Shown here in pieces: positions 953 to 4,702 of a DNA stretch of 32,303 nucleotides. The first letter of the stretch is position 1; each line of letters begins with the position of its first letter. Position numbers and translations under genes: made by a program. Where the stretch lies: NCBI GenBank assembly GCA_017415505.1, contig JAFQGG010000044.1, positions 1-32,303 on the forward strand, read 5' to 3'. The notes beneath the pieces are model-generated. The model made no database searches, was not told the DNA's origin, and saw only the letters and a program-made list of their open reading frames with translations. Source of the DNA: Clostridia bacterium (GTDB lineage: Bacteria; Bacillota; Clostridia; Christensenellales; Borkfalkiaceae).

Positions 953-2434
953 TTATTGTTCTTTTTCAATATTTTTTATATCTTTTTTAATGGCAAAAGC
1001 ATCGTTGAAGAAAACGAAAGATGTAATTAGAGAAAAAAAAGAAATTATCGAACAAATAAATCCCCACCCAATAGAACCCCCATTAACAAAATCACCAACC
1101 GCGATTATGGCAAAAGCAATGGTGGAGAGAAGGCTTTTCCTAATATTAGATTTAACCGATTTTAATTCTTTTTCTTTTTGTTGTTTTTGCTCTTTTTTTA
1201 ATTCTTTTTTTAATTCTTTTTGTTTTTCGCGCTCTTTTTCTAATTGAATACATTCTATACGGCGGGTTTCGTCTACGAGTGCTAAGTATTTGTTAAATTC
1301 AGGGATAGTGTATAAGGAAACGTCCAAATCCAAGATTTCTTTATCCGTTTTTACGCGCAGTTTCATCAAGCATATATTCCAATACACGGCGGAATTATTC
1401 GGGGCAAAGGACAAAATTAGTTTGCTGAAATATTCCGAGTCTTCAAAATACCCGTTTCTCAGCGTAATTTGAGAAAGGGCTGTCAGTTCCGTTATCCAAG
1501 CAGAAAGCTCGTCGGTGTAACACAAGAAAATTTCCTTTGCGATTAAACAATGGTTTTGCGTGTGGAGTTTTTTTCCAAGCCAAGTCAAAACGCCTTTAAT
1601 TTCCGCGCGTTTATCTTCGGAATATTTTAATATATTCCCTAACGTATTCAAAACGGCGGAGGGGAGGTCGTCGTCTTTAAGCTGTGTATATAAAAGCATT
1701 TTTAAAACTTCCATATTTTTCTCGTCGATTTTTAGAACTCTAAGAAGATATTCTTTCTTTTCCGCTCTCGTTTTTGCGTATTTGGCATATCTCAAATTGT
1801 ATTGGATATATGAATCAACGTCCGCGCTATTCAGCGTGGTAAGCAACAATTCAAACGACATTTTTAAGCTGTTTGCAATTGCGCAAGCAAAGGAGGCTTT
1901 GATTTGAGCTTCGCGTTTTTCATACCGATAGGGCAATACGATTTTTAAGATTTCACAATAAAAAGCGTCGCTCGCTGTTGTACGTTCGTTATATAATAAG
2001 TCCAAAATTTTCGTTGCCATTTCTTGAGGGGCTTCGCTGATAATTTTATCCAAATATGGCAAATTGGCGATAGTAACTCTTTTTGCAAACGTTTCCTTGT
2101 CCATTGCCCTTTTTTCTATCAAAAGCTTTTTCCACAAGGCTTCCGTGCAAACGGAATTTTTGGATAAAATATCGTTTACGAGTTTTTCCGCCTCTTCCCA
2201 TTGCTCCAATTTTATATAAGTGTCGATAAGAGAAAGCGTTTGTTGTTCCGTAATATCCGTTTGTACCTTTATTCCTATGCTCAATTCTCGCGTTTGTAAG
2301 GTTTTTATCGGTAAAGTTTTGGCAAAAACTTGTTCTTCTTGGATGGGATGTTTTTCTCCGCAATTTTCACGAACGTAGCAATCTTCTTGCTTGATTAGTT
2401 TGCTACCGCAATTTTTACATACGATATTTTCCAT
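953..2434 (-). CDS. Zinc-ribbon, TPR-like protein with C-terminal membrane hairpin
   Basis: A 493-residue protein of unknown function. The start at 2434 is chosen because AAGGAG lies just upstream; a longer frame to 2470 would run into the leader terminator. Residues 1-30 resemble a zinc ribbon (C6-x2-C9 and NCGEKH with C25), but the expected Cys three residues before C25 is Arg22 (CGT, one change from TGT), so metal binding may be impaired or may use C19. The middle is helical with TPR-like phrases such as LIDTYIKLEQWEEAEKLV. A very charged Lys/Glu coiled coil (about 405-430) precedes two hydrophobic helices and a cytoplasmic tail. It is transcribed alone from 2623-2651, behind a long structured leader. 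A scaffold or sensing role at the membrane is only a guess. Confidence 0.8.
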   Translation of the reverse strand: MENIVCKNCGSKLIKQEDCYVRENCGEKHPIQEEQVFAKTLPIKTLQTRELSIGIKVQTDITEQQTLSLIDTYIKLEQWEEAEKLVNDILSKNSVCTEALWKKLLIEKRAMDKETFAKRVTIANLPYLDKIISEAPQEMATKILDLLYNERTTASDAFYCEILKIVLPYRYEKREAQIKASFACAIANSLKMSFELLLTTLNSADVDSYIQYNLRYAKYAKTRAEKKEYLLRVLKIDEKNMEVLKMLLYTQLKDDDLPSAVLNTLGNILKYSEDKRAEIKGVLTWLGKKLHTQNHCLIAKEIFLCYTDELSAWITELTALSQITLRNGYFEDSEYFSKLILSFAPNNSAVYWNICLMKLRVKTDKEILDLDVSLYTIPEFNKYLALVDETRRIECIQLEKEREKQKELKKELKKEQKQQKEKELKSVKSNIRKSLLSTIAFAIIAVGDFVNGGSIGWGFICSIISFFSLITSFVFFNDAFAIKKDIKNIEKEQ

Positions 2435-2451
2435 GGTTTCTCCTTGTAATG

Positions 2452-2483
2452 AAAAAGTGTCGCTTCGCAAACCGAAACGACAC
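2452..2483 (-). terminator. Leader terminator upstream of the zinc-ribbon gene
   Basis: Read on the minus strand, 2483-2473 and 2467-2457 form an 11-bp stem (one G-U) with the loop GUUUG, followed by five U at 2456-2452. It lies between the promoter and the start codon, about 18 nt before the ATG, so it can act as an attenuator. The 3' arm can instead pair with 2517-2511 and the 5' arm plus loop with 2509-2499. Confidence 0.8.
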
Positions 2484-2509
2484 CTGATAAAAGTGATTTT
2501 TCGCTTTGC

Positions 2510-2617
2510 TGCGACACAACTACTAAACTCTAATGTCTATAAAAGTTTTGTAAGCGCGAAAAGGTACACTTCCACCCAGAAGTATACTTTTATAGACGAT
2601 TATGCAGTTATGTCGCA
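2510..2617 (-). promoter_or_regulatory. Structured 5' leader (candidate riboswitch or attenuator aptamer)
   Basis: The RNA starts at about 2616-2617. P1 is UGCGACAUAACU (2617-2606) with AGUUGUGUCGCA (2521-2510): 12 pairs, one G-U. P2 is UAAU-C-GUCUAUAAAA (2602-2588) with UUUUAUAGACAUUA (2544-2531): 14 pairs with one bulged C. P3 is GUAUACUUC (2587-2579) with GAAGUGUAC (2572-2564), loop UGGGUG. A one-sided 19-nt bulge (2563-2545) separates P2 from P3. The 3' strand of P1 overlaps the strand that would form an antiterminator with the terminator at 2452-2483. I do not recognise a known class. The ligand may be a metabolite, ion, protein or temperature. Confidence 0.65.
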
Positions 2618-2622
2618 ATAGT

Positions 2623-2651
2623 ATTGTACCACTTTTTTAAGTTTTTGTCAA
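2623..2651 (-). promoter_or_regulatory. Promoter of the zinc-ribbon gene
   Basis: On the minus strand TTGACA (2651-2646), a 17-base spacer and TACAAT (2628-2623). The expected start is about 2616, exactly at the first base of the P1 stem of the leader. Confidence 0.85.
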
Positions 2652-2803: not shown

Positions 2804-4702
2804 ATGAAAGTAAAAATTTCAAGAATCGTTTATATTATTTTGCTCCTTTTGGCGGATACTGCGGCGGTATTTTGTTCCGCCACGTTATCTTACATTGGAA
2901 GTGTGCCGAATGGGGAGTTCGTAGCGCCCGTATGGATATGGATAGGCTGTAACGCCGTATTCGCCGTGGCGATCTTTTTGCTGTTCGGGTTATACGGGAT
3001 CGTGTTTTCCAACTTCGGTTTGCCCGAAGTTTTGAAAACGGCGCTAGCCTCCATTCTTCTTTGCGTAGCCAACGTGGGCATGGTAATCGCTACGGACGGT
3101 TTGCATATCACGCTCGCAACGGCGATTTTTTACGGTCTGTTTTTATTCTTGCTTGCAACGCTCGTGCGTTCGTCCAAGCGCATACTTTGCTTTGCATACC
3201 GCTATATCAAAGGTATCAACGGGAACGGCAAGCGCGTAATGCTCGTCGGCGCGGGCGACGCGGGGGCGACGATCGTGCAAGAAATGCAACGGACCTCGAA
3301 AATTGAATACGAGCCCGTTTGTATGCTCGACGACGATCCCGAAAAACACGGCAAGTTTATTCGTGGCGTAAAGATCGTCGGAGGGGTTGCGGACGTGGAG
3401 AAGTACGCGAAAAAATACGCTGTGGAAGAAATTCTCGTCACCATGCCCTCGGTGAGCAAAAAACGGGTGAGCGAGATCGTTCGGCTTTGCCAAGCTTGCA
3501 ATTTACCCGTGAAAATTTTACCCGGCATATACCAACTCGTGAACGGCGACGTCGCCGTTTCCCAGCTTCGCGAAGTGGAGGTGCAAGACCTGTTAGGTAG
3601 GGAGCAGGTATGCGTCAATTTGAACGAAATCATGGGTTACATAGAGAATAAAACGGTTCTCGTGACGGGCGGGGGCGGGTCGATCGGGAGCGAGCTTTGT
3701 AGGCAAATCGCTTCGCATAACCCCAAAACGCTCATCATTTTAGACGTGTACGAAAACAACGCCTACGAGATCGAGCAGGAGTTGAAACGCAAAAAAGTTC
3801 CCTGTCCTATTCTCACGCTTATTGCGAGCGTACGCGACAAAACGAAAATGCGGGACGTTTTCGAGAAATACCGCCCGCAAATCGTCTTCCACGCGGCGGC
3901 GCATAAGCACGTACCGCTCATGGAAACGAGTCCCAACGAGGCGGTGAAAAACAACGTGTTCGGTACTTTGAACGTGGCGCGTTGCGCGGACGAATTCGGC
4001 GTGGAAACTTTCGTGCAAATTTCCACCGACAAGGCGGTGAACCCCACGAATATCATGGGCGCGACTAAGCGTATTTGTGAAATGATCGTGCAAACGATCG
4101 GAAGACACAGCGCGAAAACGAAGTTCGTCGCGGTGCGTTTCGGGAACGTGCTCGGTTCGAACGGCTCGGTGATTCCGCTGTTCAAAAAACAAATCGCGGA
4201 GGGCGGACCCGTTACGGTCACGCATAAGGAGATTATCCGTTATTTCATGACCATTCCCGAAGCCGTTTCCCTCGTACTGCAAGCGGGCGCGTACGCCAAG
4301 GACGGACAAATTTTCGTTCTCGATATGGGCGAACCCGTGCGCATTTACGACCTTGCTTGCAACCTTATCCGTCTTTCGGGCTTCGAGCCGAACGTGGATA
4401 TCGACGTGGTTTGTACGGGCTTGCGCCCGGGCGAAAAGCTGTTCGAGGAACGCTTAATGGCGGAAGAAGGGTTGCAAAAAACGCCCAACGGGCTTATTAG
4501 TATTGCAAAACCTATCGAGTTGAACGAAGAAAAGCTTTGGGCGACGCTCGAAAAATTGGAAACGGAAGCGCGCGCGGAATCGGAGGATATGAAACGGCTC
4601 GTAAAAGCGCTCGTGCCGACCTATACCATAGACACGCGCAATTCGGTGGCGGAAGCGTTGCAGGAAGCGAACCAGCGCCCCGCAACCTCGGCAACGGCAT
4701 AA
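2804..4702 (+). CDS. CapD/PglF-type UDP-sugar 4,6-dehydratase, membrane-anchored
   Basis: A 632-residue membrane-bound nucleotide-sugar dehydratase of the WbpM/PglF/CapD family, acting on UDP-GlcNAc-like substrates early in the synthesis of modified surface sugars. The start at 2804 has GGGGAAGGG upstream and lies after the promoter. Four hydrophobic helices (about 8-125) anchor it. A first Rossmann-like domain follows (RVMLVGAGDAG, 144-154). The catalytic short-chain dehydrogenase domain has VTGGGGSIGSE (287-297, NAD-binding) and STDKAVNPTNIMGATK (407-422). In the last motif Met replaces the usual catalytic Tyr, as is normal in this long subfamily. Length is typical. It is transcribed alone from a consensus promoter to a strong terminator; the sugar-transferase partners are not nearby. 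The exact substrate cannot be read from the sequence. Confidence 0.92.
   Translation: MKVKISRIVYIILLLLADTAAVFCSATLSYIGSVPNGEFVAPVWIWIGCNAVFAVAIFLLFGLYGIVFSNFGLPEVLKTALASILLCVANVGMVIATDGLHITLATAIFYGLFLFLLATLVRSSKRILCFAYRYIKGINGNGKRVMLVGAGDAGATIVQEMQRTSKIEYEPVCMLDDDPEKHGKFIRGVKIVGGVADVEKYAKKYAVEEILVTMPSVSKKRVSEIVRLCQACNLPVKILPGIYQLVNGDVAVSQLREVEVQDLLGREQVCVNLNEIMGYIENKTVLVTGGGGSIGSELCRQIASHNPKTLIILDVYENNAYEIEQELKRKKVPCPILTLIASVRDKTKMRDVFEKYRPQIVFHAAAHKHVPLMETSPNEAVKNNVFGTLNVARCADEFGVETFVQISTDKAVNPTNIMGATKRICEMIVQTIGRHSAKTKFVAVRFGNVLGSNGSVIPLFKKQIAEGGPVTVTHKEIIRYFMTIPEAVSLVLQAGAYAKDGQIFVLDMGEPVRIYDLACNLIRLSGFEPNVDIDVVCTGLRPGEKLFEERLMAEEGLQKTPNGLISIAKPIELNEEKLWATLEKLETEARAESEDMKRLVKALVPTYTIDTRNSVAEALQEANQRPATSATA
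3604..3614 (+). repeat. GCAGGTATGCG motif site
   Basis: One of four exact plus-strand copies of this 11-mer in the window; here inside the capD-like gene, preceded by GGGA. Confidence 0.7.

Follow-up and report, generated by a model that had tools for sequence, protein, structure and literature searches.

The window analysed here (the whole stretch of 32,303 nucleotides) carries on its minus strand a structured leader RNA that we propose to be a cis-acting transcription attenuator, in which a switching segment would choose between two partner strands, an effector would gate the choice, and the downstream gene would be turned ON. We give this reading an even chance. Promoter, leader, intrinsic terminator, ribosome-binding site and gene follow one another on the same strand, which is the architecture of an attenuator, and comparison with copies of the RNA from other genomes supports the helices, the promoter, the terminator and the gene context. 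The RNA family is absent from Rfam and apparently uncatalogued, and may be listed under another name.

Organization of the leader and of its copies

A first-pass annotation made from the letters of this DNA had described a promoter, a P1 stem enclosing P2 and P3, a bulge, and an intrinsic terminator followed by five U. All of these are present (Table 1), with two corrections in length: P2 has 11-12 bp where 14 had been given, and the bulge 18 nt instead of 19. P3 has the 9 bp announced.

Table 1. Features of the leader and of the regulated gene, in window coordinates.
Feature	Position	Strand	Basis or remark
Leader, P1 to U tract	2617-2452	-	Ahead of the gene starting at 2434
Sigma-70-type promoter, TTGACA-17-TACAAT	2623..2651	-	11/12 matches
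P1, 5' strand	2604..2617	-	Fold and swap test; predicted RNA start at or next to P1
P1, 3' strand	2510..2523	-	Fold and column comparison
P2, 5' strand	2587..2597	-	Fold and swap test
P2, 3' strand	2535..2545	-	Fold
P3, 5' strand	2579..2587	-	Comparative; absent from the window's own minimum-energy fold
P3, 3' strand	2564..2572	-	Comparative; part can pair instead with 2495-2486 (S2)
Bulge, 18 nt	2563-2546	-	Fold
Bulge strand UUUUCGC	2556..2562	-	Pairs with 2504-2498, the pseudoknot part of S2
Switching segment	2486..2504	-	S2 with 2576-2567 and 2562-2556, or its 5' part with terminator 5' arm and loop
Antiterminator hairpin, 5' arm	2491..2509	-	Minimum-energy fold of transcript ending before terminator 3' arm
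Antiterminator hairpin, 3' arm (terminator 5' arm and loop)	2467..2485	-	Fold
Intrinsic terminator hairpin	2457..2483	-	Sequence scan and comparison
Terminator U tract, five U	2452..2456	-	Sequence scan
Ribosome-binding site AAGGAG	2440..2445	-	Read from the sequence
Regulated gene	953..2434	-	N-terminal zinc ribbon (two CxxC), helical middle, C-terminal membrane stretch

For the comparisons we used two sets of copies. In the near set, 91 loci were scanned and, once 6 duplicates and 8 loci without a local match had been dropped, gave 77 copies, of which 75 form the near alignment (A1) after exclusion of two truncated ones; of the weaker matches of the blastn search, a part was fetched. The distant set holds 104 distinct copies obtained from the best 105 of 120 covariance-model matches, and includes five viral-contig copies and one further copy from the window's own genome. 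The 15 weakest matches, which it omits, are mostly reverse-strand echoes, at least one of them being likely a real tandem copy.

The promoter scan found 2 promoter-like sites for 1.5 expected, so that the leader promoter alone is weak evidence. The same promoter is retained, with at least 9/12 matches in a lax scan run without shuffle control, ahead of 74 of the 75 near copies, and the distance from the end of its -10 box to P1 is 5 nt in 72 near copies and 6 nt in 3. A start codon with a ribosome-binding site follows the terminator within 60 nt in 61 of the 75. Divergent from the leader, a plus-strand sigma-70-type promoter (2726-2754, 12/12) precedes an NDP-sugar dehydratase-like polysaccharide-synthesis gene (2804-4702, Pfam PF02719).

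Comparative support for the helices

Folding of the leader RNA (2630-2435), one of the checks proposed by the first-pass annotation, gave -64.8 kcal/mol with a z of -6.87, and none of 200 dinucleotide shuffles was as stable. In the single-sequence minimum-energy fold of the window a different 7-bp hairpin replaces P3, and P3 thus rests on comparison. Another of its checks, homologous leaders with covariation, was also positive. Column counts on the 75 near copies for P1, P3, the pseudoknot and the terminator taken together gave 93.7% of paired cells versus 89.1% in shuffles, and changes on both sides in 20 of 39 pairs versus 9.1 expected, a number as high being found in 0 of 500 shuffles. Taken separately in the same copies, P3 had 97.6% of cells paired and both-side changes in 3 of its 9 pairs, the pseudoknot strand 96.4% and 3 of 7, and the terminator 97.2% and 7 of 10. 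The CGC/GCG pairs of the pseudoknot are retained in at least 70 of the 75 near copies.

We also performed strand-swap tests between copies, in which z is inflated by relatedness for all helices. P1 gave z values of -22.2 in the near set (n=75) and -29.6 in the distant one (n=104, many with quite different letters), and the terminator -15.9 and -26.8, respectively. P2 is not column-countable in the near alignment and its support comes from this test, where most of its stability was lost (z -34.0, near). P3 gave -9.5 and the pseudoknot strand a weak -3.0, both in the near set. When swaps were limited to the five closest relatives, the own partner of P1 was better in 71/75 near and 101/104 distant copies, and for the terminator nearest-relative swaps gave 66/75 and 90/104. 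P1 and P3 conserve letters in addition to pairing. RNAalifold on A1 chose S2 and the terminator and omitted P1, P2 and P3, because a nested prediction has no room for both and P2 lacks a structural alignment. Altogether, P1, P2, P3 and the terminator are backed by compensatory changes, seen in the 75 near copies and in the 104 distant ones.

Two conserved partners for one segment

The same comparisons indicate that the stretch directly 3' of P1 is conserved in two pairings, one with the terminator 5' arm and loop (the antiterminator) and one with the P3 3' arm and the neighbouring bulge (S2). Since both need the same bases, they are mutually exclusive, and P1 can persist with either.

The conserved alternative antiterminator is supported by swap tests and hairpin shuffles, and the column count on A1 stands against it. 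Swap tests gave z -12.6 (near) and -19.1 (distant); with nearest relatives the own partner was better in 43 and worse in 22 of the 75 near copies, and better in 80 and worse in 14 of the 104 distant ones. The hairpin beat all 20 of its shuffles in 58/75 near and 82/104 distant copies. On A1, no covariation above shuffles was found for the antiterminator (80.0% paired versus 79.3%, with 11 double-change cells versus 11.0). The missing column signal is perhaps due to a badly aligned terminator loop, yet sliding gives at most 64.5% pairing. In minimum-energy folds of transcripts ending before the terminator 3' arm, P1 and the antiterminator coexist in 75/75 near and 104/104 distant copies; these figures mean little, as the threshold of at least 6 antiterminator pairs is also passed by most shuffled controls (341/375 and 382/520).

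The S2 duplex reaches -19.3 kcal/mol in the window and -19.9 kcal/mol on average in the near set, both being duplex values; the folding programs used do not score pseudoknots. Together with the terminator, S2 is 96.1% paired in the near set, with both-side changes in 14 of 27 pairs versus 6.7 in shuffles. The whole helix gave swap z values of -5.8 (near) and -16.8 (distant), and its P3-arm part -9.0 (near). S2 beat all 5 shuffles in 69/75 near and 89/104 distant copies. Nearest-relative swaps barely favoured it in the near set (35 better, 30 worse of 75) and gave 64 better and 24 worse of 104 in the distant set.

These results support the structured leader with terminator and antiterminator described by the first-pass annotation and change how its parts would work. 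The antiterminator pairings that it proposed exist (2517-2511 with 2463-2457, and 2509-2499 with 2477-2467) and as one duplex have an energy of -25.1 kcal/mol. It had taken P1 and the antiterminator as exclusive, the gene being turned OFF when P1 forms. The exclusion is not supported as proposed, and a turn OFF through P1 is not our preferred direction: the main antiterminator (2509-2491 with 2485-2467) lies 3' of P1 and coexists with it, no helix of the set is weaker than the one that would open P1 by pairing its 3' strand with the terminator 3' arm (swap z values of -2.8 and -3.2), and the S2 competitor had been missed. We thus discarded a competition of P1 with the antiterminator as main switch, for which support was weak. 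A helix joining the P1 5' strand to the terminator 5' arm was rejected too (swap z +0.7), and a small hairpin in which the post-pseudoknot segment pairs with just the base of the terminator was weak (z -2.9).

Proposed mechanism and alternatives

From these pairings we infer a folding order, two working states (S2 and antiterminator) and an effector. RNA polymerase would start at P1, and P1, P2 and P3 would fold first. The segment made next (2509-2486) would then face its two possible conserved partners. Paired with the terminator 5' arm and loop, it would form the antiterminator hairpin and leave P1-P2-P3 intact; paired with the P3 3' arm and the neighbouring bulge, it would open P3 and leave the terminator free to form. 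As S2 both opens P3 and removes the antiterminator, it should go with termination, and as its partner strands are transcribed ahead of the terminator, one would expect S2 and a stop by default. Without effector, S2 would thus capture the segment and transcription would stop at 2452-2456. A small molecule, ion or protein holding P1-P2-P3 together would block S2, so that the antiterminator would form and the gene would be read. In full-length minimum-energy folds the terminator is kept in 42/75 near and 60/104 distant copies, which suggests a small energy difference between the two outcomes.

Of the two directions, ON in response to a stabilised P1-P2-P3 seems somewhat more likely than OFF; the ON direction rests on the folding order and not on data. 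In the OFF version of the same attenuator, which comes nearest to the direction given by the first-pass annotation and which we hold to be rather unlikely, the effector would bind the pseudoknot or S2 form, the switching segment would be sequestered and the terminator would form. The pseudoknotted 3' strands of several known riboswitches belong to the ligand-binding fold, and the pseudoknot part is here highly conserved in sequence, both of which speak for OFF. However, S2 is already strong unaided, judged by the duplex energies given above, and it forms at the expense of P3, a helix with conserved pairing of its own. The RNA could instead be a stand-alone small RNA gene with its own promoter and terminator, the downstream genes being incidental. 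This would account for the 14 of 75 near copies lacking a start codon and ribosome-binding site within 60 nt, for the one of five own-genome copies behind which no open frame was found, and for tandem arrays, in which the upstream copy precedes only another promoter and copy; but a start codon lies close behind the other 61 near copies and a conserved antiterminator would be needless, and we regard it as improbable. Several copies per genome, tandem copies and 6 copies on contigs called viral could also suggest a MITE-like mobile repeat carrying a promoter and a terminator by chance. Since copies from the same genome diverge widely yet keep their pairing, and the window's own genome has no near-identical copy of the element, such a repeat appears highly improbable.

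Genes behind the RNA

The first-pass annotation had placed the window's gene among those of unknown function. Its protein has weak Pfam matches only (DUF5883, TPR_19); the family as a whole is not tied to this one gene and sits, as judged from the sequences, mostly before surface-protein genes. Proteins were scanned behind 67 of the 77 near copies (ribosome-binding site, at least 100 aa, within 200 nt) and behind 40 of 53 non-duplicate further loci. Among the 67, BspA-type repeats were found in 38, Listeria-Bacteroides repeats in 11, collagen repeats in 5 and TIR domains in 4. Among the 40, BspA-type repeats were found in 10, others being zinc ribbons and cell-wall enzymes. Lipoprotein-like starts, by a lax lipobox pattern, were found in 52 of 71 genes within 200 nt. 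The link between the RNA and BspA repeats is not exclusive, as the window's own genome holds 47 BspA-repeat stretches and only 5 copies of the RNA. Four of these precede the window gene, two BspA-repeat proteins and an EcoRI-type adenine methylase; behind the fifth we found no open frame. The methylase (PF13651, E 5.8e-136; L213:366-1457, C43) adjoins a copy with a model E of 8.4e-5.

The window protein shares 45% identity over 303 aa with a protein of another genome (G084) that has a TIR domain and a zinc ribbon and is encoded directly behind a copy of the RNA. Zinc-ribbon proteins with a TIR_2 domain lie behind the RNA at four loci (L056, L061, L063 and L030), and one of these proteins is related to the window protein, which lacks the TIR domain. 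The zinc-ribbon/TIR_2 products possibly under the switch could be effector or defence proteins. A PADLOC scan of the 67 downstream proteins gave 3 weak member matches only.

Distribution and copy number

A blastn search with the leader (E 0.01) matched 50 of 151 related genomes. We counted 37, own genome included; the 13 others, with matches under 50 nt only (10 of them at the promoter end), were not counted. A covariance model of the 75 near copies was then run on three overlapping draws of genomes, with E 1e-4 for the phylum and 1e-3 for the others. It found the RNA in 68 of 396 genomes of the order (23 of 142 genera) and in 53 of 391 genomes of class Clostridia (34 of 223 genera). In the phylum draw of 398 genomes it found the own genome alone, indicating that the model is specific; no member outside the class was seen in this draw. 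The 49 stretches lying in named genome records are Clostridia or Clostridiales MAGs, and the named sources of MAGs with the RNA are the hindgut of deer, sheep, goat or yak, or 'Lapin'.

Among the genomes listed, up to 7 copies per genome were found. At 15 fetched loci there are at least 2 same-strand matches, and in 7 of the 13 neighbouring pairs inspected at 12 loci the gap is 50-67 nt, hardly enough for more than the promoter of the second copy. The whole promoter-switch-terminator unit is repeated at tandem loci including L268, L267, L269, L214, L215, L219, L245 and L178. In such arrays the upstream copy would read into the next promoter and switch, and control could become steeper or respond to two inputs. 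At another locus a Gut-1 RNA (RF01706, 58.7 bits for a gathering score of 50; L180:1196-1272) lies about 230 nt upstream of a same-strand copy.

Of two pattern scans run on viral contigs, one gave 6 copies (L205-L210) and the other 0. A phage search with one copy matched a single unannotated faecal phage record (MT835845.1, 72.1% identity over 92%), and plasmid searches with two copies gave no match. The viral-contig and phage copies precede small genes.

Relation to known RNAs and candidate effectors

The aptamer had not been recognised in the first-pass annotation, and our searches agree with this. A scan of the window with Rfam 15 gave nothing at the gathering threshold, and a scan of 40 loci with copies gave tRNA, TPP and Gut-1 only, none overlapping the element. 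Lax Rfam matches (mir-316, MESTIT1_1, mir-368, manA-II and others) were rejected as chance-level, far below gathering scores. For the T-box, there was no Rfam match in the window at the gathering threshold or up to E 10. A text search of the literature with six short stretches of its conserved letters gave 0 papers. Apart from the SLH motif, no description of the motif was found in the available text of the open-access literature, PMC11109978, PMC8632094 and PMC7266159 having been covered by term only. Fremin and Bhatt (2021; PMC8040213) listed 3161 candidate structured RNAs from human microbiomes, with gut data; the family was not matched in the available text of that paper, whose catalogue could contain it.

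By gene context, the nearest known system in the available text is the SLH motif (Stav et al. 2019; PMC6429828), a riboswitch candidate for which c-di-GMP was suggested as a possible ligand. It was reported from Synergistaceae, Clostridia and Negativicutes, with about 60% of its 80 examples before S-layer-homology genes (PMC6429828). Both are candidate cis-regulatory RNAs, found at least partly in Clostridia and before surface-protein genes; here, however, the host genome and 5 of 10 RNA-carrying genomes lack SLH domains, the two RNAs being compared by description only. As described in part of the text of PMC11077080 and PMC7337938, the fluoride and ZTP/ZMP ON riboswitches also set a pseudoknotted region against an intrinsic terminator during transcription, as proposed here; however, their helices differ, and no Rfam riboswitch match overlaps the element in the window or at the 40 loci.

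Surface and adhesin-like genes are often under c-di-GMP switches, and the c-di-GMP-I and -II riboswitches control surface genes in multiple copies, a likeness to this family. A new or degenerate c-di-GMP riboswitch would fit such targets, but no Rfam c-di-GMP family matched, no GGDEF match was found in the host genome (94% complete), and among 25 RNA-carrying genomes GGDEF is present in 11 and absent from 14, host included. For the host this contradicts the reading, barring a GGDEF gene in the missing part of the genome, and we consider c-di-GMP very unlikely as the effector. An RNA-binding protein that would hold P1-P2-P3 or the antiterminator, in the manner of BglG/LicT, seems doubtful, if less so. 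It would agree with the conservation of letters as well as pairs in P1 and P3, and with the fact that the regulated genes share no pathway naming a metabolite. The CAT_RBD domain, by which BglG and LicT bind RNA, was however found in 0 of 25 RNA-carrying genomes, with 4 of 14 controls positive; the protein could be of another kind. As for c-di-AMP, the DAC domain of its synthase is present in 15/15 genomes, but as 11 of 14 controls also carry it this is uninformative, and the c-di-AMP (ydaO) riboswitch had no Rfam match in the window.

Tentatively, we suggest that the RNA could represent a new class of Clostridia riboswitch that responds to an unrecognised signal other than c-di-GMP and makes a gene-by-gene choice of BspA-type repeat, collagen-like, TIR/zinc-ribbon and cell-wall proteins, through a strand choice between invasion of the sensor hairpin and the antiterminator. 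The family is common in uncultured gut Clostridia, ahead of surface-protein genes, and an effector, if found, would open a way to study the surface choice of these bacteria and might add a new signal.
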